From positions 1 to 46,152 of IMG/VR virus record IMGVR_UViG_3300030104_005779: a stretch of DNA of 46,152 bases; one strand, written 5' to 3'. Within the stretch, counting starts at the first letter, position 1, and the number at the start of each line of letters is the position of its first letter. Source of the stretch: a virus. The translations under genes and the position numbers were made by a program. This document shows positions 1 to 46,152 of the stretch, in pieces. A model generated the notes under the pieces. That model did no database searches and was not told the DNA's origin. It saw nothing but the letters and a program-made list of their open reading frames with translations.

Positions 1-101
1 CTTTACCAGAAATACTGCCGGTTTAAGTATGAGGAGAAAATAATGTCAAAAATATTTGAATATACAAATGATGTATCATTAAATAGATCAGCAAGAATTA
101 G
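1..101. repeat. Left copy of terminal redundancy
   Basis: Bases 4-101 are identical to 46055-46152. Extended to 1-101 versus 46052-46152 there is one mismatch (T at 3, A at 46054). The contig therefore closes on itself: either a circular or circularly permuted genome cut by the assembler, or short physical direct terminal repeats. The repeat covers the end of the tape measure gene and the start of the next gene, so it is not a separate non-coding end. Confidence 0.9.
2..43 (+). CDS. C-terminal end of tape measure protein (duplicate piece)
   Basis: This is the last 13 codons plus stop of the tape measure gene that is complete at 43971-46094, present again because of the terminal redundancy. 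The single mismatch changes a Tyr codon (TAT) to Phe (TTT) in the first codon. The stop overlaps the next ATG as TAATG. It is not a separate gene. Confidence 0.85.
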   Translation, partial: FTRNTAGLSMRRK

Positions 102-12531: not shown

Positions 12532-12555
12532 AAGGGCGGGTTAAATTCCGCCCTT
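12532..12555. terminator. Bidirectional terminator between converging arms
   Basis: An 8-bp perfect stem (AAGGGCGG / CCGCCCTT) with an 8-base loop is followed by a T run on the plus strand and has an A-run/TTTT block on the other side (T run on minus). It sits exactly where the rightward arm (ending 12525) meets the leftward arm (ending 12541), so it can stop both. The end of the DUF7220 gene lies inside the stem. Confidence 0.8.
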
Positions 12556-12943: not shown

Positions 12944-13252
12944 TTATACTTTATACATTGTATATTTAACAGTTAATTCCTCACCTTTTTTAATTAGTCT
13001 ATTCGTGACTAAATAAACTTCTTCATGATATATACAATCTTCCCTTTCTTTTATACAGTTTGGTTTATTACTATGATTAATAAATCCACCTAACGGTGTT
13101 CTAATAGTTTTATTAAAATCAGTTACATGATGCATCATACCTAAATTAGTATTTTTCTTTATATCTTTAGTAGCAAATAATCCTAATCCTTCAATAGTTG
13201 ATGCTTTTATTGTTAATGAATTTGGTAGTGGTTTATACTTTCTTGTTTTCAT
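12944..13252 (-). CDS. SET-domain lysine methyltransferase-like protein
   Basis: A compact 102-residue SET domain. Residues 22-27 (GLGLFA) give the SAM-binding strand, 57-66 give the hallmark FINHSNKPNC block (N59, H60, S61, C66), and the end holds KKGEELTVKY with Tyr97 in the place of the catalytic tyrosine. No pre- or post-SET zinc cluster is seen. Such small SET proteins methylate lysines of partner proteins; the target here is unknown. Start ATG has AAAGGATAT upstream. It lies just downstream of a structured GC-rich segment on the same strand. Confidence 0.75.
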   Translation of the reverse strand: MKTRKYKPLPNSLTIKASTIEGLGLFATKDIKKNTNLGMMHHVTDFNKTIRTPLGGFINHSNKPNCIKEREDCIYHEEVYLVTNRLIKKGEELTVKYTMYKV

Positions 13253-13297
13253 ATATCCTTTATTCCGTTGGGCAGTTTTTACAGGTTACCCAGCTGC

Positions 13298-13415
13298 TTC
13301 GGTTTACTGGTAGTGATGTAGGCCGAGAGAGGAAAAAGCCTATGCTCATCCACCTACCATTGTCTGTTAGCCATTGCCTAATAGGTCTTACTTGTGGATC
13401 TAACTTCTAACCGAA
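13298..13415 (-). ncRNA. Structured GC-rich intergenic element (candidate ncRNA)
   Basis: The gap between the primase-helicase and SET genes is about 44% G+C in a much AT-richer region. Complementary blocks make a three-way junction: outer helix 13298-13304/13409-13415 (7 bp); long hairpin 13308-13313/13354-13359, 13315-13318/13347-13350 and 13319-13323/13338-13342; and hairpin 13366-13370/13400-13404. Next to it (13269-13297) GGGCAG/CTGC-type pairs could form a pseudoknot. Strand is taken from the flanking leftward genes. It could be a stand-alone RNA, a processed leader of the SET mRNA, or a protein-binding site. I do not recognise it as a known RNA family. Confidence 0.5.
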
Positions 13416-13420
13416 TTTTG

Positions 13421-15055
13421 TTATAATACCTCTTTGAAAGCAATATTACTTACATGTAAATTTAATCTTCCAGTTTCAGCATTATATATAGCTTGACCAC
13501 AATGACCAGTATCTCCAGTAAATCTACTTTTTAAAACAGCAAATTTAACTGCATTACGTTCTTGCTTTTCAGCTGCCATCATGTTTCTACTAAAGGCTAC
13601 AATATCAAAACTAATTTGTTTAATACTTCCAGATCCCTTTATATCATCTAATGATGCCATACGGCCTTCCTCAAATGATTTATTATCCCCATGACTTTTT
13701 CTTAAATGGGATATTAAAGTTAAATGTATATTATATCTTTTAACAATTTTTAATAATGAACTCATAACCTTATCAATTGCTTCATTACCTGATAAACCTT
13801 CTGAGCCTTCAGATACTGCAATTGTTATGTGATCTAAAATTAAATATTGACAGCCTAATGCAGCCAAATATTCAATCCTAGACAATAAAGAACTATCTTG
13901 AACAGATCCTTGATGATCTAATAATATTAATCTTTCATCACCAAATACTTTTTCAAAACCTTTCCTAGCTTCTTCTTCAGTACAATCTTCTGGTGTTCTA
14001 ATATTTTTATTTATAGACATACCAATTAATCTAGTAGCAGTGTCACCAATAGATTCTTCTAATGATATTAAACCTATTTTAGCATCAGATTGTTCTAATA
14101 AATTTAATATTGTTTCTTTAACAACAGTTGATTTACCTGAACCTGTACCAGATGTAAATAAAGTAATTTCACCTAATCTCATACCTAATAATTTATCATT
14201 TAAACCTTTTAAACAATCAGGATATGGAACAGATTTAGTATTAGATCTTTCTTTAAATGCTTGCCATATTTTTTCACCGGACACAAAATTATCTGGCTTA
14301 TATGATTTAGCCGACCAAACATCTTGTAAATATTGATCAATTAAACCTTTCTCTAGAGCCTCATTAGCATCTTTATAAACGCTATTTACAATATGTGCTT
14401 TCCCGGGCTTAATAATATGTGCAACATCTTTTGCCGCTTCAATACCATATTCATCATTATCAAATGCTAAAAATACTTTTTCGTATTTATTTACAAATTC
14501 TAAATTAGATGCAATATTTCTTCTAGCACTTTGGGCACCATTAACAATTGATACCACATCAAATTGTGCTTTAGCTTTTGTAAGCATTTCTAATAATGAT
14601 AAACAATCTATTTCACCTTCAGTAATAACTAAATTTTTTCTTTTACCACTATTACATTGGTTAAATAATTCAGGCACTTCAGCTTTACCAATAACTCTAA
14701 AATCTTTGGTAACAACTATTCTTTTCTTATATGCTTTAATTTTTTTATTTACTGTTATTGGATAATAATGACTTATAATATTTCTTTTATCATCATATTC
14801 AATTTTAACTCCAGCATTATATAAAACCTTTTTAGATATACCTCTAAATGTATCTATTGGTAATTGACTTATTTCATCTAAAGTTAATTGTGATTGTACA
14901 ATTTTAAATTCAATATCTACATCTTCTATACCAGATGCAGTACTTTTCTTACAACTGAAACAATATGTGGATCCATCAGAATAAACAGCATTTGCGTCTG
15001 ATGACCCACAAGATTCACAGCTTGTGTGTTTTATAAACGTTGTATTCTTTCCCAT
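13421..15055 (-). CDS. T7 gp4-like primase-helicase
   Basis: A 544-residue bifunctional replication protein. Residues 13-35 hold a zinc-binding set (C13, C16, C32, C35) for template recognition. A TOPRIM primase core follows (TEGEIDCLSL, later FDNDEYG). The C-terminal half is a RecA/DnaB-type helicase with Walker A TSGTGSGKST, a Walker B-like LILDH and a downstream SHLRK/GSGSIKQ block. It makes primers and unwinds DNA ahead of the polymerase. Start ATG has a good GAGAGG site. It overlaps the HNH-like gene upstream by 41 bp. The length matches T7 gp4. Confidence 0.92.
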   Translation of the reverse strand: MGKNTTFIKHTSCESCGSSDANAVYSDGSTYCFSCKKSTASGIEDVDIEFKIVQSQLTLDEISQLPIDTFRGISKKVLYNAGVKIEYDDKRNIISHYYPITVNKKIKAYKKRIVVTKDFRVIGKAEVPELFNQCNSGKRKNLVITEGEIDCLSLLEMLTKAKAQFDVVSIVNGAQSARRNIASNLEFVNKYEKVFLAFDNDEYGIEAAKDVAHIIKPGKAHIVNSVYKDANEALEKGLIDQYLQDVWSAKSYKPDNFVSGEKIWQAFKERSNTKSVPYPDCLKGLNDKLLGMRLGEITLFTSGTGSGKSTVVKETILNLLEQSDAKIGLISLEESIGDTATRLIGMSINKNIRTPEDCTEEEARKGFEKVFGDERLILLDHQGSVQDSSLLSRIEYLAALGCQYLILDHITIAVSEGSEGLSGNEAIDKVMSSLLKIVKRYNIHLTLISHLRKSHGDNKSFEEGRMASLDDIKGSGSIKQISFDIVAFSRNMMAAEKQERNAVKFAVLKSRFTGDTGHCGQAIYNAETGRLNLHVSNIAFKEVL

Positions 15056-15425
15056 ATATTTCCTCTCTTGTTATTTTATATCTTTTTGTAGCCCATTTAA
15101 CAAACCTTTTAATATCTCTACCAGTTGCAGAGGTCATCATAAGGTTTGCTATATTGGTTACAAATTCTACATTACCTTTTACATATCCTAACCTAGGATC
15201 TATTCTATCTAATGTTGGACTTAATTTACCTAAATTAATATTTGAAACTTTCATTGTGTACCCAAGAATTGGACATACTGAATTTTTAGGATAAATAGAT
15301 TCCAAATAATTAGATGTTAAATTAAAAGGTAAATTTTTTATTTTTGATCGTCTTTTAGAGGCTTTACAAGCAGTAACAGCAATACCCCTAATAGATTGAT
15401 TATACTTTTTTTGATTGAACGCCAT
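15015..15425 (-). CDS. HNH-like endonuclease
   Basis: A 136-residue basic protein. The N-terminal 30 residues are rich in Lys/Arg (DNA contact). The key segment is CPILGYTMKV, then SPTLDRIDPRLGYVKGNVEFVT and ANLMM, which follows the phage HNH pattern (D-R-I-D/N-x-x-x-G-Y-x-x-x-N-V). The second metal-binding Cys pair is missing. It may cut branched DNA (a role like T7 gp3) or be a homing-type nuclease. It overlaps both neighbours in a T7-like cluster, which favours a core role over a free-standing homing gene. Confidence 0.65.
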   Translation of the reverse strand: MAFNQKKYNQSIRGIAVTACKASKRRSKIKNLPFNLTSNYLESIYPKNSVCPILGYTMKVSNINLGKLSPTLDRIDPRLGYVKGNVEFVTNIANLMMTSATGRDIKRFVKWATKRYKITREEIYGKEYNVYKTHKL

Positions 15426-18975: not shown

Positions 18976-19224
18976 TTATTCTCCTGAGTTATAAAAAAAG
19001 TAAGTTTGTTTATCTGTTTCCATACAAGTATGAGCAAATACTGGTCTATTTTTATATGTATAATATCCCCATATTTCTCCATTACCAGCTTCATAATTTG
19101 GATTATCTTTCCAAATAACAACTTTCATATATGCATCTTCACAAAATTCACCTGGTGCTACTTTTATTGGTATTTCAACTTTTTGAAGACCAGTTAAAAA
19201 TAATATTAAAATAATTGTTTTCAT
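18976..19224 (-). CDS. Small exported protein of unknown function
   Basis: An 82-residue protein with an N-terminal hydrophobic stretch (IILILFLTGL, about residues 4-13) like a signal peptide, followed by a Trp/Tyr-rich part with two cysteines. No lipobox. I do not recognise a family. It starts in the stop codon of the ASCH gene, so the pair is translationally coupled. Confidence 0.6.
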   Translation of the reverse strand: MKTIILILFLTGLQKVEIPIKVAPGEFCEDAYMKVVIWKDNPNYEAGNGEIWGYYTYKNRPVFAHTCMETDKQTYFFYNSGE

Positions 19225-19538
19225 TAATGTACTGTTTCAACCTTTTTAATTGTATATAAATAATTACAAGGATAATATTTTTTAAATTCATTATCAATTT
19301 TAGCTTCTTCAAATATAAGATCTAAATCATCTTGTTCTAAAACTGTTAAATCTAAAATTACACCTATTGTAATAATTAATTCTATTTTATCTGTATTATT
19401 ATTTATTAAACCAACTTTTTTACCTTCTAATGGTAAATAATATCTTCTAATTTCAGATTTCTTTTCACCAGATTTAATTAGATCTAACCATTTTTTATCT
19501 ATATTAAATGTGTGCATTTTAAATAATTCGTCCATCAT
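19224..19538 (-). CDS. ASCH-domain protein
   Basis: A 104-residue PUA-like ASCH protein: HTFNIDKKWLDLIKSGEKK, SEIRRYYLPL gives the classic H-x(10)-SGxKxxEIR core (residues 9-33), and the second half forms the small beta barrel (KVGLINNN, then YLYTIKKVETV). ASCH domains bind RNA or modified nucleotides; the role is unknown. A promoter-like motif starts only about 10 bases upstream, so its message may have a very short leader (start 19538 or 19535). Confidence 0.75.
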   Translation of the reverse strand: MMDELFKMHTFNIDKKWLDLIKSGEKKSEIRRYYLPLEGKKVGLINNNTDKIELIITIGVILDLTVLEQDDLDLIFEEAKIDNEFKKYYPCNYLYTIKKVETVH

Positions 19539-19540
19539 AA

Positions 19541-19563
19541 TTTTCTCTGTAAGATATAGATTT
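19541..19563 (-). promoter_or_regulatory. Predicted phage RNA polymerase promoter, leftward (copy 1)
   Basis: Core TCTATATCTTACAGA at 19546-19560 on the minus strand, one of six copies. It lies between the SSB terminator hairpin and the ASCH gene, pointing at that gene, so it would restart transcription after the terminator. Confidence 0.7.
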
Positions 19564-19564
19564 A

Positions 19565-19584
19565 GCTGGGCAATTAAGCCCAGC
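19565..19584 (-). terminator. Stem-loop after SSB gene
   Basis: Seven-bp perfect stem GCTGGGC/GCCCAGC with loop TTAATT, 12 bp after the SSB stop. The same 20-base sequence occurs in the plus orientation after the major tail protein (42499-42518). A short T/A run follows. A terminator or mRNA 3' protector for a very abundant message. Confidence 0.75.
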
Positions 19585-20334: not shown

Positions 20335-20358
20335 ATTATCCTCCTTTAAATAATTAAT

Positions 20359-20415
20359 CTATTTATAAAGCCAATATATTAGGAGGATATAAAAACATAT
20401 TGGCTATAAAAATAG
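20359..20415. repeat. Long imperfect inverted repeat in divergent control region
   Basis: Arms 20369-20377 (AGCCAATAT) and 20397-20405 (ATATTGGCT) are perfect; with mismatches the symmetry extends from about 20359-20377 to 20397-20415 and fades into AT-rich flanks. It lies between the leftward promoters and the first leftward gene. It could be an operator, an RNA hairpin in the leader or part of an origin. Confidence 0.65.
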
Positions 20416-20443
20416 ACTAATTAAATAATTGATTAGTTATTTA

Positions 20444-20466
20444 GCTTCTCTGTAAGGTATAGAAAT
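20444..20466 (-). promoter_or_regulatory. Predicted phage RNA polymerase promoter, leftward (copy 2)
   Basis: Core TCTATACCTTACAGA at 20449-20463 read on the minus strand. Points to the zinc-ribbon/SSB operon about 110 bp away. Same core as copies 4 and 6. Confidence 0.72.
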
Positions 20467-20517
20467 AGGAATATCTTCATATAAATATATAAGCTTATAG
20501 ATAAGTTTTATTTTTAG

Positions 20518-20540
20518 TTTTTTCTGTAAGACATAGAAAT
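20518..20540 (-). promoter_or_regulatory. Predicted phage RNA polymerase promoter, leftward (copy 3)
   Basis: Core TCTATGTCTTACAGA at 20523-20537 on the minus strand. It stands back to back with the rightward copy 4, only 15 bp apart, so the pair forms an imperfect inverted repeat. Confidence 0.72.
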
Positions 20541-20549
20541 AGGTTTTCA

Positions 20550-20572
20550 AATTCTATACCTTACAGAAGTTT
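20550..20572 (+). promoter_or_regulatory. Predicted phage RNA polymerase promoter, rightward (copy 4)
   Basis: Core TCTATACCTTACAGA at 20553-20567, followed by AGTTT. Points at the rightward early genes from 21081. Divergent to copy 3. Confidence 0.72.
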
Positions 20573-20802
20573 CAAATCAGTTGCAGAAAATGCCTAAAAT
20601 AACCATTTTCGTAGTGTTTATTTATCTACAAAAAATGTATACAATTATCGGCCTACGTATATAAGGAAACTAATTGCTATTATTATAAAATAAAGCTTTC
20701 TTATTTACTATGGTTTTGTATAAATAAGGATAGTTAATTAATTTTTATTTTTTAATTATTTTATTAGTTAAGTTTCTAATAAATAAAACACATAAAAAAA
20801 CA

Positions 20803-20939
20803 GCGGGTATATTAAAATACCAGTAAAATGGGGCTACACCGCAACTTTAAGGGTTACAGGGATCTAAAAATTCCTATTGGAATATCAACCGAGTAGAAAT
20901 TCCTGGCCGAGGGTTAGTTTATCTTTATCGGCTAAGTTG
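20803..20939 (+). other. Folded leader segment of the rightward transcript
   Basis: A GC-richer island in AT-rich surroundings. Visible helices: GGTAT/ATACC (20806-20810/20817-20821) inside GCGG/CCGC (20803/20839), ATTCC/GGAAT (20870-20874/20879-20883), and GCCGA/TCGGC (20906-20910/20928-20932) closed by CAAC/GTTG (20886/20936). This could be a structured 5' untranslated region, an RNA with its own function, or a protein-binding site. No known riboswitch recognised. Confidence 0.4.
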
Positions 20940-20987
20940 GTATCAAAACCATCCAATAGTTCTAAATAGATCACAATTTAATTTTTT

Positions 20988-21052
20988 AACCAATTATAAA
21001 TATTCATATTTGAGGTTTATTACCGATCTTTTGAAGACGGTTATAATTGGTT
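20988..21052 (+). repeat. 12-bp inverted repeat with inner hairpin before first early gene
   Basis: AACCAATTATAA (20988-20999) and TTATAATTGGTT (21041-21052) are perfect complements. Inside, ACCG-A-TCTT-TTG-AAGA-CGGT (21022-21041) forms a second hairpin with one bulged base. It ends 29 bp before the ATG at 21081. It may control translation or stability of the early message, or pause transcription. Confidence 0.65.
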
Positions 21053-21080
21053 TAATAATTAAATTAACAAAGAGGATATT

Positions 21081-21375: not shown

Positions 21376-21669
21376 ATGGCTACTAAAAAAGCACAAAGCG
21401 GAAAACATTTGGAATATATTATCATAAGACCAACTTTTGGTTTTAATGTTGATACATTAGCAAATGCTATTTTATGGTATCACCAAGACGTGGAGAAATT
21501 TAAATCTACACATAAAACTTGGAACAAGATTATGGAGGCCGCTAAATCAGGTATTTTAGAAGAAGGTCTTCAAAAATTGGAATATGTTTTTGAATCAATT
21601 GATGATTATGATGCTAAACATAAAAGTTTAGTTGAATATATGAAGTCAATTAATCCACAAATTGATTAA
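21376..21669 (+). CDS. Early protein of unknown function
   Basis: A 97-residue mostly helical protein with site GGAGGATAACAAC. It begins MATKKAQSGKHLEYIIIRP and contains ILWYHQDVEKF. No known family seen. The gene is followed by the first copy of a 45-bp repeat hairpin that leads into the next gene. Confidence 0.7.
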   Translation: MATKKAQSGKHLEYIIIRPTFGFNVDTLANAILWYHQDVEKFKSTHKTWNKIMEAAKSGILEEGLQKLEYVFESIDDYDAKHKSLVEYMKSINPQID

Positions 21670-21676
21670 ATTTTAT

Positions 21677-21721
21677 TTTAACCCTCATGGCCTAAAAAAC
21701 CATTGAGGGTTAAGATGTGAA
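21677..21721 (+). repeat. Leader hairpin repeat, copy 1
   Basis: 45 bp identical to 22132-22176. It folds as AACCCTCATGG/CCATTGAGGGTT (one mismatch) around CCTAAAAAA and ends 22 bp before the ATG of the next gene. There is no T run, so it is more likely an RNA-processing, stability or translation element than a terminator. Confidence 0.85.
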
Positions 21722-21743: not shown

Positions 21744-22124
21744 ATGAAAAAACCAACACAAGGCTTTGATGTAAATGTAGATGATTTTATTGAAGCTAAT
21801 ACTAAAAAATATCCAAATTTTGAATCTGTAAATGCTGGATATTGGTTATATGGCCAACCAAAAAAGTTATTAAAAGATGTATTGGAAGATAGAAAAACTA
21901 ATTTATTTTATATTTTCAATATAATGAACTCTATTTCAACATTAGAGACATTAACTAATCTTAATAATGACTTAGCAAAAGATGGAGTTGAACCTAAAGA
22001 TGCAAAATTTAGAAATGCTTCATATGATGTTGCTTTAAATCAATTAAGAGTTGATATTAAAGAATACAAAAATAATTATGCTAAAACTTTTGTATTTGAA
22101 CAATTACTTAAAACTAAAATATAA
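21744..22124 (+). CDS. Early protein of unknown function
   Basis: A 126-residue protein with site AGGAGGATAAAA. N-terminal QGFDVNVDDFIEANTKKYPNF, then helical with YWLYGQPKKLLKDVLEDRK. I recognise no domain. It lies between the two 45-bp hairpin repeats, the second of which belongs to the next gene's leader. Confidence 0.7.
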   Translation: MKKPTQGFDVNVDDFIEANTKKYPNFESVNAGYWLYGQPKKLLKDVLEDRKTNLFYIFNIMNSISTLETLTNLNNDLAKDGVEPKDAKFRNASYDVALNQLRVDIKEYKNNYAKTFVFEQLLKTKI

Positions 22125-22131
22125 GTTAAAG

Positions 22132-22176
22132 TTTAACCCTCATGGCCTAAAAAACCATTGAGGGTTAAGATGTGAA
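22132..22176 (+). repeat. Leader hairpin repeat, copy 2
   Basis: Identical 45 bp to 21677-21721. It ends 14 bp before the ATG at 22191, again directly upstream of a strong AGGAGG site. The identical sequence with no drift implies recent duplication or strong selection on the RNA fold. Confidence 0.85.
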
Positions 22177-25031: not shown

Positions 25032-25268
25032 TTGCGGTCTTTGTTGACAAAGCAAAAAAAATTGATCAAAAGTAAAATACAAATCCAAGATCAAATTAAA
25101 GCTATGCAAGCATTGACCGTTATTTATGGCGACGAAATTATTAAAATAGAAAATGAATTGTTAAAAATAAACAGGAGGAAGACAAATGTTAAAAGAGCAA
25201 TTGAACAATTTAGAAACACTCGGTCCAGTCGGAATAAAGATAAGAACTCAAATGGAGATGTTGTTTGA
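25032..25268 (+). CDS. Small coiled-coil protein with TTG start
   Basis: I chose TTG at 25032 because AGGAG ends eight bases before it; an earlier in-frame ATG (24960) would lie deep in the preceding gene and has no site. The 78-residue product is charged and helical (SLLTKQKKLIKSKIQIQDQI) with a basic tail. It overlaps the RNA polymerase gene by 83 bp. The frame fills the otherwise empty gap. No family recognised. Confidence 0.5.
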   Translation: MRSLLTKQKKLIKSKIQIQDQIKAMQALTVIYGDEIIKIENELLKINRRKTNVKRAIEQFRNTRSSRNKDKNSNGDVV

Positions 25269-27474
25269 TAAATTATCTAATAAAACTAATAGTAATAGAA
25301 AACCAGACGTTATTACTTTAATTAATAATCATAAAATTGATTTTAATATAGCAATACAACTATCACATTCAATGATAGCAACTGGTGTATCTGAAGGACA
25401 AAACCTAACACAATTAGCAATTGCTATTGGTGATAGAATATTAGCTTTTTATAAAATAAATAAAAAAGCATCAATCTCGTTAAAATTAGGAATATTTATA
25501 ATTAATTCATATAGCACATTATTTATGGTTGTTGTAAAATTAATTAGAGAATATTACCAACATAATAAAGTTAAAACTGTTTATAAAGTTTATGCAGGTA
25601 AAAATAGAAATGATCTTAGAAAATTAGTTAAAGAATTTTCTGAAGTTTCAGATCCTTATAAACCTTTATTATCCCGGGCTCCTGAATGGAAGTTTGGAAC
25701 AGTTAAAATAAACAATGGTGAAGAAATTAAATTAATTAAAAATGTTAATCAAGATGTATTAGCAAATATTAATGAATATAATACACCTATTGTATTAAAT
25801 GCAGTAAATAAAAAGCAAGCAGTTGCTTATTATGTAAAACCTGAAGTATTTAATGTTTACCAATGGGCATTAAAAACTAACCAGGATTGTTTTGAACATA
25901 ATTCAGTTAAAACAATATCAAAAGAAAGAGCATTGGCTAAGAAAAGAGAAGCCGAACAGGTATTAAATGCGGCTAAACCATTTGTTGGTAAAGTATTTTA
26001 TCAGCAATATCAAGCAGATAACCGTGGCAGATTATATCCGCTATCGGCTTATTTAAATGAACTTAATTCAGATAATGCTAAAGGTATGCTTTCATTTGCT
26101 GAAGGAAAACCACTAGGCTCCACTGGATTAAATCAATTTTATCATCATATTGCTAATATGTATGGTGAAGATAAATTGACACATAAAGACAAAGTTAAAT
26201 TTGTTGAAAAAGAATATTATAACTTTGTAAAAATGGGCAAGGATCCCTATACTGCAAAAGGTTGGATGGAAGCAGAAGAACCATTTCAATTTTTATCAGC
26301 AGTTATGGAACTAGCTAAATTGGATGAACATTTTGTAGCAATGGGTAAAACTGAAGATTTTATATCTCATACCATTTGTTATAGAGATGGATCTAACAAT
26401 GGCTTACAATGGCTGTTTAGTTTAGCTAAAGATGATAATCATGCACATTTAGTTAATGTAAAACCTACAACAGATAATAAACCAGGTGATATGTATTCAC
26501 ATGTAGCAGTTTCTGTTGTGGATAAAATGCATAAAGAAGCACTAAAGGCAGATGATATAGCGTTAGATTATTATAATTTATATTTTAAAGGTATAGAAAA
26601 ACTTAGAAATAGGTTTAGAAATGCTGAGTTAAATAATAATAAAAAATCTGAGTTATATAAAAAACTAATTAAATGGTATCAGAGAAGATATAAAAAAGAA
26701 CTTAAATTAACTGACATCATTTATTGGGATAAGTCTAAATTTACCGTTAAAGAATGGCGTAAAATTGTTAAACGGAATGTTATGACTTATGGTTATAGTG
26801 CAACCAAGCAAGGTATGGGTGAACAAATAATACAAGATACAAGAGATATAGATAATGTGTATTTAAGTAATAAACAACACTCAGCGGCTAGGGCTTTAGG
26901 TGCTCTTGTTTATTTAACAATTGAACAAGAATTTCCTATGGTTTCTGAAGCAATGAGATTGTTTAAAGATAATTGCGAGATGTATATGAAAAGTACTGGT
27001 AAACAGTATTCTCATAAAACATTAATTAGCAATTTTCCATTTACACAAAAATATGTCAAATATAAACGTGGTATTGTATTTGTTCATGACGGTTTATATG
27101 TACAAAATCAGGATAAATCGTATAAATGGGATTATCAATTAGAGTTAATTATTAAAACAGAATTAGCAATACAAAATATTAGTAAGGCTAAGGCTGGAAT
27201 AAGTCCTAATACAATTCATAATTTGGACTCATTACATTTAATGCTTGTAATTGATAAATGTAACTTTGATATTGTATCAGCACATGATAGTTATGGTTCA
27301 CATGCTTGTAATGTAGTTGATATGCAAAAATGTATCAGAGAACAATTTAAATATATTATAGACCAAGATCCTCTTCAGCATATATTAAATGAAACAGGAA
27401 ACTTGGTACCTATGATTCAACGTGGCAATTTAGATAGCAGTGAAATATTGAAATCTGAATTTGCCTTTGCTTAA
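25186..27474 (+). CDS. Single-subunit (T7-like) RNA polymerase
   Basis: A 762-residue phage RNA polymerase (T7 has 883, so the N-terminal domain is short). Landmarks: QADNRGRLYPL, motif A YRDGSNNGLQW with Asp401 (T7 D537), the K529-R530...Y537 helix KRNVMTYGY (spacing as T7 K631-Y639), and motif C AHDSYGSHACNV with H700, D701, S702 (T7 H811, D812). It starts with ATG after AGGAGGAAG. It would read the six TCTAT-RY-CTTACAGA motifs and drive the later genes. Early host transcription must produce it first. Confidence 0.95.
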   Translation: MLKEQLNNLETLGPVGIKIRTQMEMLFDKLSNKTNSNRKPDVITLINNHKIDFNIAIQLSHSMIATGVSEGQNLTQLAIAIGDRILAFYKINKKASISLKLGIFIINSYSTLFMVVVKLIREYYQHNKVKTVYKVYAGKNRNDLRKLVKEFSEVSDPYKPLLSRAPEWKFGTVKINNGEEIKLIKNVNQDVLANINEYNTPIVLNAVNKKQAVAYYVKPEVFNVYQWALKTNQDCFEHNSVKTISKERALAKKREAEQVLNAAKPFVGKVFYQQYQADNRGRLYPLSAYLNELNSDNAKGMLSFAEGKPLGSTGLNQFYHHIANMYGEDKLTHKDKVKFVEKEYYNFVKMGKDPYTAKGWMEAEEPFQFLSAVMELAKLDEHFVAMGKTEDFISHTICYRDGSNNGLQWLFSLAKDDNHAHLVNVKPTTDNKPGDMYSHVAVSVVDKMHKEALKADDIALDYYNLYFKGIEKLRNRFRNAELNNNKKSELYKKLIKWYQRRYKKELKLTDIIYWDKSKFTVKEWRKIVKRNVMTYGYSATKQGMGEQIIQDTRDIDNVYLSNKQHSAARALGALVYLTIEQEFPMVSEAMRLFKDNCEMYMKSTGKQYSHKTLISNFPFTQKYVKYKRGIVFVHDGLYVQNQDKSYKWDYQLELIIKTELAIQNISKAKAGISPNTIHNLDSLHLMLVIDKCNFDIVSAHDSYGSHACNVVDMQKCIREQFKYIIDQDPLQHILNETGNLVPMIQRGNLDSSEILKSEFAFA

Positions 27475-27724: not shown

Positions 27725-27964
27725 ATTGTTATAATAAGAAGTAATAAACCACAAAAACGAGGCAATTTCTTTGTTATTGTAAAAGATAATAATATTGAAA
27801 AAGCTATTCGTAAGATGAAAAACAAATCTAGCAAATTAGGTATATTAAAAACATACCGTGAAAGGCAAAGATATGAAAAACCATCTGATAAAAAAGTAAG
27901 AAAAGCCAAAGAAGGTAGAATAAGCCTTTTAAAAGCTAAAATAAAAAGGGAAAAGAACTTATAA
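27725..27964 (+). CDS. rpsU: Ribosomal protein bS21 homologue with non-canonical start
   Basis: The frame encodes ...FFVIVKDNNIEKAIRKMKN, then LKTYRERQRYEKPSDKKV and a basic helix, matching bacterial bS21 (core VxENEPFDVALRRFKR, then EFYEKPTTERKR). It would enter host ribosomes near the anti-Shine-Dalgarno region and may bias them to phage messages. No ATG, GTG or TTG is in frame between the stop at 27704-27706 and the protein core. GAGG lies five bases before ATT (27725), and ATA at 27731 is another choice. AUU starts are known for infC, where they allow self-regulation. Start is uncertain; the coding region is not. Confidence 0.8.
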   Translation: MVIIRSNKPQKRGNFFVIVKDNNIEKAIRKMKNKSSKLGILKTYRERQRYEKPSDKKVRKAKEGRISLLKAKIKREKNL

Positions 27965-43970: not shown

Positions 43971-46094
43971 ATGGCTGTAAAATTAGATATAATTACTAAT
44001 GTTAAGGGACAGAACGGAGTAAACCAATTACAATCCGGATTAGATAAATTAGGAAGAAATGCTCAAATAGCTTCAACAAGATTAAAACAATTACAAGGTG
44101 CAGCTGCTAAATCAAGAGCAACTTTTGCAGCATTAGGAACAACTTTAAAAGTTGGTGTTGCTGCATCATTAGCTGCTGTTAGTTTTGGTATTGGTAAATT
44201 TATAAGAGATACATTTTCTGCAGGACAACTTACTGAATCATTACAAGTAAGATTTAAACTATTATTTAATTCTGCTACAGAGGGTGCAAAAGCATTTAAA
44301 GTATTAAATACATTTGCTGGTAAAGTTCCTTTCTCACTAGAAGCTATTGCTGCTGGTTCTGGTAACCTAGCTGTTATTGCTAAAGATGCTAATGAATTAG
44401 CTAAAATATTAGAAATAACAGGTAATGTTGCTGCAGCTACAGGTCTTGATTTTAGACAAACTGCTGAACAAATTCAAAGAGCATTTGCTGGTGGTATAGC
44501 CGCTGCTGACGTCTTTAGGGAAAGAGGTGTTAGAGCAATGTTAGGTTTTGAAGCTGGTGCTAAAGTATCAATTGAAGATACTAGAAAAAGGTTTTTTGAA
44601 GTATTTGGTAGTGGTGGACAATTTTCTACTGCAACAAAAGAATTTGAAAAAACTTTAGAAGCACAGGTTTCATTTGTACAAGATGCTTATTTTAGATTTA
44701 GACAAGCCGCTGCTCAACCTTTATTTGAAGGTGTTAAACAACAATTAGTTGCTTTAGTTGGTAATTTTAAAAGAAATGATACTCAATTAAAAGAATTAGC
44801 AAAAACTGTTGGTACTAATTTAGCACAAGCATTTAAAAATATTGAAGGTGCAATTAGGTTTGTATCTAGAAATATAGATCTTTTAGTTACTGGATTTAAA
44901 GTATTTATTGGATTAAAAGTAGCTACAGTGGTAGCAGGTATTGCTGCACAATTTATATTAATGGCACAAGCTATAAAAACTGCAGGAATTAGTTTAGCTG
45001 CTTTAAATGTAGCATTAAGAGCTAATATAGTTGGTATTGTTATAACTACAATACAAGTAGGTGTTGTAGCATTTATTGCATTTAATGATGCTATAATGAA
45101 AGTTGTAAATACAATTAAAGATTTTTTTATACAAAAAATGAAAGAAGCTCAATTAGCTGTTCTTAATTTTGTTTCTAAATTAAAAATATTTCCAAAAACT
45201 TCAGCAGAAGCAGAAGAAGCTGCTAAAAAATTAAGTGCAGAACTTAATACAATAAAAATGGAAGCTAATGAAGTTATTGCTTCTTACACAACATTAAATA
45301 AAAAACAAAAAGAATTATTTTCAGGAACAAGAACTACACCAAGAGCTGAAAGGGATCCTAGATCAAGACCTAATTTTGGTGCTGCTAGTGATCCTGATTT
45401 TTTAAAAAAACAATCAGATATAGCTGCATTAAATGAGCGAATATTTACAATGAATAGAGATTTTATTCGTGATCAAGCTAAAATTAATGCTAATCAAACA
45501 ACATATAAAGATTTATTACATGCATCTGGTATTGAAGCTAAATTAATTTCAGATACAATTAGTACAGGATTTTTAGATGGATTAAGACAAGGTAATTCAT
45601 TATTAGAGATTAGTAAAAATTTATTTAAAAGTGTTGCACAAACAATAGCTGAAACAATTATAAAAAAGACTATTGAATTACAAATAGAAAAATTATTTGA
45701 ATTTCTTGGTACTAAAAAACTTACAATTGAAAAACAAATTACTGCAGAAAAAGCTCAACAATTAGCTTTTGCTACTGCAACCGCTGCTGTTAGTGGTGGA
45801 TCAAGTAGTAGTTTATTATCATTTTTCAAATTTAACAAAGGTGGAGTTGTACCAGGTGGTGCACCTTATAATGATAGAATACCTGCATTATTAACACCAG
45901 GAGAAACTGTTATACCTAGAGGTGAATCAGCTGGCTCAATAATAAATAATAATACAATTAATGTAAGTGGTAATGTTGATCAAAGAGCAATAGATCAAAT
46001 TAGAGCTGTTATAACATCAAGTCCTTCACATGTTGGTGGAGCTAATAAAACCTATACCAGAAATACTGCCGGTTTAAGTATGAGGAGAAAATAA
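43971..46094 (+). CDS. Tape measure protein
   Basis: 707 residues, the longest tail-module protein of this arm. N-terminal coiled-coil (SGLDKLGRNAQIASTRLKQLQGA), hydrophobic helices in the middle (about 310-380), a fibrous helical part (about 400-590), and a C-terminal Gly-rich motif with FNKGGVVPGGAPYNDRIPALLTPGE, typical for phage tape measure ends. With ~0.15 nm per residue it implies a tail of roughly 100 nm. Its last 41 bases recur at the left end of the window. Short leader GGGAAA precedes ATG. Confidence 0.88.
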   Translation: MAVKLDIITNVKGQNGVNQLQSGLDKLGRNAQIASTRLKQLQGAAAKSRATFAALGTTLKVGVAASLAAVSFGIGKFIRDTFSAGQLTESLQVRFKLLFNSATEGAKAFKVLNTFAGKVPFSLEAIAAGSGNLAVIAKDANELAKILEITGNVAAATGLDFRQTAEQIQRAFAGGIAAADVFRERGVRAMLGFEAGAKVSIEDTRKRFFEVFGSGGQFSTATKEFEKTLEAQVSFVQDAYFRFRQAAAQPLFEGVKQQLVALVGNFKRNDTQLKELAKTVGTNLAQAFKNIEGAIRFVSRNIDLLVTGFKVFIGLKVATVVAGIAAQFILMAQAIKTAGISLAALNVALRANIVGIVITTIQVGVVAFIAFNDAIMKVVNTIKDFFIQKMKEAQLAVLNFVSKLKIFPKTSAEAEEAAKKLSAELNTIKMEANEVIASYTTLNKKQKELFSGTRTTPRAERDPRSRPNFGAASDPDFLKKQSDIAALNERIFTMNRDFIRDQAKINANQTTYKDLLHASGIEAKLISDTISTGFLDGLRQGNSLLEISKNLFKSVAQTIAETIIKKTIELQIEKLFEFLGTKKLTIEKQITAEKAQQLAFATATAAVSGGSSSSLLSFFKFNKGGVVPGGAPYNDRIPALLTPGETVIPRGESAGSIINNNTINVSGNVDQRAIDQIRAVITSSPSHVGGANKTYTRNTAGLSMRRK

Positions 46095-46152
46095 TGTCAA
46101 AAATATTTGAATATACAAATGATGTATCATTAAATAGATCAGCAAGAATTAG
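46052..46152. repeat. Right copy of terminal redundancy
   Basis: Matches 1-101 with a single mismatch (A at 46054 versus T at 3). Contains the end of the tape measure gene and the start of the 204-residue tail gene. Confidence 0.9.
46094..46152 (+). CDS. Start of the distal tail gene, truncated by the window end
   Basis: The ATG overlaps the tape measure stop (TAATG). These 19 codons are identical to 43-99 of the complete gene at 43-657 and run off the right edge. The piece is a duplicate caused by terminal redundancy. Confidence 0.85.
   Translation, partial: MSKIFEYTNDVSLNRSARI

Follow-up and report, generated by a model that had tools for sequence, protein, structure and literature searches.

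In Vibrio cholerae, OppZ and CarZ are autoregulatory sRNAs derived from 3'UTRs that act in trans, with a demonstrated dependence on RNase E and Hfq (PMC7398697). The icaR 3'UTR of Staphylococcus aureus carries a pyrimidine motif, UCCCC, which pairs with the Shine–Dalgarno (SD) sequence of its own mRNA and hampers translation initiation (PMC3868564). The C4 antisense RNA of phages P1 and P7 is structured, bears in a loop the complement of a ribosome-binding region and controls the translation of a phage gene (PMC12197685). In alphaproteobacteria, the structured sRNAs of the alpha-r14 family (NfeR1) hold ultraconserved pyrimidine anti-SD motifs unpaired (PMC10746234).

The RNA described here comes from an IMG/VR phage record of 46,152 bases; this whole stretch of DNA, as analysed, is referred to below as the window. 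The RNA is about 147 nt in length (Table 1). OppZ and CarZ, too, come from the end of an operon transcript and pair with the initiation region of one of that operon's genes, giving post-transcriptional negative feedback; for the phage RNA the pairing and the feedback are predictions. The phage RNA lies in the 3' part of the target transcript, directly after the helicase stop codon (an ORF intervenes only in L097 and L098), and its complementarity is selective for the initiation region of the helicase. Unlike OppZ and CarZ, it is a large conserved three-way junction with a pseudoknot, described here from sequence comparison, and it may sit inside the operon, with SET and other genes able to come after it. 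Like the icaR motif, its loop is a 3' sequence able to pair with the SD of its own mRNA, here through a 10 bp complementarity of which both sides are predicted to be open; icaR, however, is a cellular and not a phage regulator, with RNase III in its pathway, and the available part of its description reports no comparable junction or pseudoknot scaffold (PMC3868564). C4 is likewise a structured phage RNA with a loop complementary to a ribosome-binding region, but its target is an antirepressor (immunity) and not a replication gene, and no Rfam match connects the two, the window RNA being unmatched by the C4 model at the gathering score or at E ≤ 10. Whereas alpha-r14 RNAs carry CCUCCUCCC in a three-hairpin fold and act on several targets in the host, the phage RNA has the loop CCUCUCU and one gene is singled out. 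The architecture is more complex than those of the autoregulatory 3'UTRs compared here, and we know of no precedent with this fold; a search of the literature found no description of the RNA. Its best reading is a 3'-UTR or processed RNA of a new family, which adds to the SAR11 viruses an RNA family new to Rfam with a probable target named.

Table 1. Coordinates in the window of the RNA, its parts, its predicted target and neighbouring or related features
Feature	Coordinates	Strand	Details
Whole conserved RNA	about 13269–13415	−	Three-way junction P1/P2/P3 with 3' H-type pseudoknot; covariance-model match, covariation
P1, 5' strand	13409–13415	−	UUCGGUU; begins 5 nt past the helicase stop codon; 99.7% paired
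P1, 3' strand	13298–13304	−	AACCGAA; pairs with UUCGGUU (7 bp)
P2 arm	13366–13404	−	GUUAG/CUAAC, CCA/UGG; conserved internal loop GUAAGA/GGCAA around short CCU/AGG cap
P2–P3 junction	13359–13365	−	AGACAAU, conserved
P3 arm	13309–13358	−	GGUAG/CUACC, GAUG/CAUC, UAGGC/GCCUA; four pairs individually significant against the phylogenetic null
P3 apical loop	13326–13335	−	UUUCCUCUCU, core UCCUCUCU nearly invariant; complementary to the helicase SD
H-type pseudoknot	13269–13297	−	GCAG (13294–13297)/CUGU (13281–13284); GGGU (13288–13291)/GCCC (13270–13273); A-rich loop between stems
Primase–helicase SD (predicted target)	15059–15068	−	AGAGAGGAAA; ATG at 15053–15055
Primase–helicase gene	13421–15055	−	Toprim + DnaB_C (Pfam); predicted regulated gene, constant 5' neighbour of the RNA
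SET-domain gene	12944–13252	−	PF00856 (Pfam); 3' neighbour of the RNA in the window phage, neighbourhood not conserved
Terminator-like hairpin	12532–12555	−	Convergent end of the transcription unit of the RNA
Phage single-subunit RNA polymerase	25186–27474		PF00940

Conserved fold on the mRNA strand

The covariance model matches the window RNA over 13268–13417 (155.9 bits, E = 2.5e-28). An earlier note on this DNA had placed an outer 7 bp helix at borders 13298 and 13415, which is exactly where the two strands of P1 lie. It had also counted three nested helices of about 27 bp in total; the conserved pairing inside P1 comes close, with 5 + 3 bp plus a 3 bp cap in P2 and three stacked helices (5 + 4 + 5 bp) with a pyrimidine apical loop in P3. 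The pseudoknot suspected just beyond the outer helix is located directly 3' of P1; its stems are 100% paired, with compensatory changes in both. The gap was correctly described as GC-rich (0.475 at 13260–13379, compared with about 0.22–0.36 around it). The conserved structure has a folding energy of −34.1 kcal/mol and the optimum −34.2 kcal/mol; it is therefore, being within 0.1 of the optimum, compatible with the optimal fold. In the predicted folds the P3 loop is unpaired and the helicase SD is open.

Compared with dinucleotide shuffles, the folding energy of the minus strand is ordinary (z = −0.67, 44 of 200 shuffles being equally good), and the value for 13253–13420 is z = +0.38. The suggestion that pairing in the single sequence exceeds ordinary expectation was thus not borne out; because the single-sequence energy is ordinary it is no proof on its own, and we rejected it as evidence for an RNA. 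A plus-strand fold was also considered and was no better than chance, the asymmetry between G–U and A–C cells favouring the minus strand. The support that the predicted structure exceeds chance is comparative.

This comparison used 45 distinct RNA sequences. In the alignment fitted with the covariance model, which is biased towards the model and in which pseudoknot stem 2 lies outside the model, 97.1% of cells are paired over 40 predicted pairs, and changes on both sides occur in 26 of these pairs, compared with 8.0 ± 1.7 when shuffled and 2–6 when slid. A plain MAFFT alignment gives 94.8% of cells paired and 18 pairs changed on both sides (6.1 ± 1.5 shuffled, 2–5 slid). Under a purpose-written tree-based null, in the spirit of R-scape and with a threshold of E < 0.05, five pairs are significant, of which P3 contributes four and pseudoknot stem 2 one, with none among pairs outside the structure. 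The check for compensatory change in relatives that the earlier note had proposed is thus answered in favour of the fold. Paired columns contain 95 G–U cells compared with 15 A–C cells, and it is therefore the minus strand that folds, as RNA. We regard it as virtually certain that 13269–13415 is a real structured RNA.

The RNA is usually better conserved than the four-fold sites of the adjacent gene, as in the comparison of the window with Pelagibacter phage Kolga (identity 0.79 for the RNA and 0.52 for the four-fold sites). The reverse holds for one pair, the window and L042, in which the helicase four-fold sites are 84% identical and the RNA only 79%; the L042 RNA is nearer to that of Kolga (86%). 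To judge from these identities, the RNA–SET block may have been exchanged through recombination.

Distribution and gene neighbourhood

The SET and helicase proteins, DNA patterns and the covariance model served as queries in a search of viral contigs for homologues, and copies of the RNA were found on several dozen contigs. Loose pattern scanning gave mostly chance matches, which the covariance model discarded. SAR11 bacteria are among the most abundant of the sea. One isolate carrying the RNA was found, Pelagibacter phage Kolga EXVC016S (81% over 273 bases), which is reported to be the first SAR11-infecting siphovirus (PMC8163748). The window primase–helicase is 79.8% identical to its Kolga homologue. 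In a divergent clade (L117/L122) P1 to P3 and the pseudoknot persist, but most of the sequence in P2 and P3 differs. No copy was found in L131, whose helicase is 76% identical, or in more distant phages with helicases of about 50% identity (L147–L150, L305–L319). Among 147 Pelagibacter-family genomes, no host copy was found other than on one phage-like contig binned in a Pelagibacter MAG.

The Rfam search suggested in the earlier note matched the window RNA to no family at the gathering score, and a search at E ≤ 10 gave nothing credible. The Kolga copy gave only chance-level matches to other families, among them the SAM-II riboswitch (SAM_alpha, RF00521; 9.8 bits where 36 are needed, E = 6.9). 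Neither ARAGORN nor Rfam detected a tRNA or tmRNA identity.

In the window, a minus-strand operon identified through Pfam encodes a ssDNA-binding protein (SSB), a dNMP kinase, DNA polymerase A, a 5'–3' exonuclease and the primase–helicase, and continues through the RNA gap to the SET-domain gene, two small ORFs and the terminator-like hairpin. Wherever the upstream side of a copy was read, the 5' neighbour is the primase–helicase, P1 beginning a few nucleotides past its stop codon in the window and its relatives; in the exception, L097/L098, a GIY-YIG/NUMOD3 ORF stands between helicase and RNA and its end overlaps P1. The 3' neighbour varies, and may be SET, an ORF of 66–85 amino acids, a DUF6552 ORF, an HNH ORF, tRNA-Asn or a GC hairpin terminator. 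L126, L101 and L088 retain the RNA but have other ORFs in the place of SET, and tRNA-Asn starts about 5 nt after it in L117, L144 and L295. In L112, L116, L120, L146 and L345 a GC-rich terminator-like hairpin and convergent genes lie 3' of the RNA, with no same-strand ORF; such a hairpin is found about 9–12 nt past the RNA in several phages and directly after it in L112 and L146. The RNA is thus kept independently of the downstream gene, and it closes the transcript in several phages.

We note that three different homing-endonuclease-type ORFs have inserted immediately next to the RNA or its tRNA, each in one contig: GIY-YIG/NUMOD3 in L097 (4601–5155), HNH in L088 (4799–5131) and HNH in L144 (1367–1648). 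These genes raised the question of an intron, which was rejected because neither a group I match in Rfam nor a split gene was found.

Loop complementarity to the helicase Shine–Dalgarno and proposed function

A search of the window for the complement of the loop core led to the SD of the upstream primase–helicase, a point absent from the earlier note. The loop and the SD can form ten contiguous Watson–Crick pairs (−15.0 kcal/mol), and by duplex energy with the loop the helicase ranks first of the 61 initiation regions in the window. With each contig's own loop, the helicase is first among all initiation regions in 20 of 22 usable contigs, some of which are near-identical and so do not amount to 22 independent tests; L269 was set aside, its helicase start being off the contig. 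The exceptions are Kolga, where it is fourth of 56, and L283, where it is fifth of 21. AGAGAGG precedes the homologous helicase start in Kolga. The GenBank start of the Kolga primase–helicase (gp28; L361, MT375529) is too far downstream: homology reaches 25283, with the AGAGAGG SD before it.

The complementarity is family-wide. GAGAGG is present in 26 and AGAGG in 35 of 39 distinct helicase initiation regions, whereas seven other operon genes, with 75 initiation regions in all, show a GAGAGG-type SD once, and the mean loop duplex is −12.2 kcal/mol for the helicase and −2.8 to −6.5 kcal/mol for these seven. The helicase does not stand out in its pairing to the 16S anti-SD (−7.5, compared with −8.3 for SSB). 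Cognate loop–SD pairs are better than permuted ones (−12.18 versus −11.57, with none of 5000 permutations as good), in a test that leaves shared ancestry in place. Both partners are altered in the divergent L117 clade, whose SD now reads AAAAGGAGAAA and whose rebuilt P3 carries UUUCUCUCU as a new hairpin loop. The helicase still ranks first of 12 there; the best single-loop duplex in L117 is −8.9 compared with −7.7 for the window's loop, a modest compensation. L091 is a clear exception, in which the RNA is retained but the helicase SD no longer pairs (−2.2 kcal/mol). The idea that the loop mimics an anti-SD towards host or phage mRNAs at large was rejected, shuffled loops being equally good over the initiation regions of Kolga (26 of 40) and of the host (28 of 40).

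In our view, the function of the RNA is probably to pair with the helicase SD and repress translation as a negative feedback, whether in cis or in trans. The RNA would be produced within the replication-operon transcript, immediately after the primase–helicase cistron, and would be stable. Its three-way junction would display the pyrimidine loop, which would pair with the SD of the primase–helicase mRNA and block ribosome binding. As the replication transcript accumulates, this duplex would form in the cell and initiation of the helicase would be blocked, giving negative feedback on the replicative helicase. The pairing could bridge the 5' and 3' parts of one mRNA over about 1.6 kb, or an RNA cut from the transcript could act in trans; both routes fit. 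A discrete RNA is plausible from the tRNA and terminator contexts, and in L117 RNase P could form its 3' end, given the nearby tRNA-Asn. If this is true, the phage replication module has RNA-based feedback on its helicase. The range of options offered by the earlier note, a trans-acting RNA, a processed RNA or a control element, was well chosen for a conserved, covarying and pseudoknot-containing RNA of the mRNA strand.

The loop–SD match could in principle be one ancestral coincidence retained for other reasons, and alone it leaves the conserved P2 internal loop, junction and pseudoknot unexplained; the conserved nucleotides outside the loop point to a possible binding partner. The element might also be a stable RNA acting in trans with its main partner elsewhere, in host or phage mRNAs or in a protein, the helicase match being secondary or an inherited coincidence. 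Its unpaired conserved nucleotides (GUAAGA/GGCAA, AGACAAU) would suit such an RNA, as would its retention whatever comes next, tRNA and terminator included, and the three other Kolga genes, among them the phage RNA polymerase, that pair with the loop equally well or better. The performance of shuffled loops over Kolga and host initiation regions argues against it, as does the prominence of the helicase across the family, and we consider it unlikely. The scaffold (three-way junction, GUAAGA/GGCAA loop and pseudoknot) might sense a ligand, the helicase or another replication protein and gate the anti-SD loop, a speculative role that we think rather unlikely; if it were true, the RNA would be a 3'-end riboregulator timing the passage from phage DNA replication into the stages that follow.

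In favour of a cis-acting leader or riboswitch for the SET gene is the position of the pseudoknot, which in the window and Kolga ends near the SET ribosome-binding site, about 16 nt before the start codon; an H-type pseudoknot close to such a site is reminiscent of SAM-II-type switches. The same RNA, however, is found without SET, and the variable 3' neighbours therefore argue that it is not a SET leader; with no Rfam riboswitch match and poor pairing of the SET initiation region with the loop (−4.7), such a role is highly improbable. The earlier note was right to see a structured RNA 3' of the replication genes on the mRNA strand, and its tie to the SET gene falls away. An element serving stability, processing or termination at the 3' end of the replication mRNA, with no antisense role, would account for the proximity to the helicase stop codon and to the terminator-like hairpins, but gives no reason to expect an unpaired loop that is invariant and matches the helicase SD, or to expect such SDs to be rare among the other genes of the operon, and seems very unlikely. 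Adjacency to a primase–helicase gene would also fit a DNA element, either an origin or a single-stranded DNA structure; to this we give next to no credence, the excess of G–U over A–C cells indicating a minus strand folding as RNA and the loop matching minus-strand mRNA. Feedback through the helicase SD remains the reading that we prefer.

Other features of the phage genome

A direct terminal repeat of 101 nt at the two ends of the window (1–101 and 46052–46152, 99% identity) makes it probable that the record represents a complete, terminally redundant genome. Ribosomal protein bS21 is located by the anti-SD. The window phage encodes a bS21 at 27773–27913 on the plus strand (PF01165, 55 bits); one was also found in Kolga and G003 and not in G002. 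SD sequences in Kolga are strong, with AGGA in 52% of its initiation regions compared with 11% in a crude host set.

A 24-nt motif, on the minus strand approximately CCTATTTCTATACCTTACAGAGAA, occurs three times (19543–19566, 20446–20469 and 20520–20543), with one copy immediately before the gene at 19224–19538, and is a candidate promoter of the phage single-subunit RNA polymerase. A pair of 55-nt repeats (21667–21721 and 22122–22176, 93% identity), with a hairpin (AACCCTCATGG...CCATTGAGGGTT), precedes short ORFs. Finally, the region 20358–21080, about 720 bases in which no ORF of at least 60 amino acids is listed, has divergent operons on either side and is likely to be a promoter or origin region.
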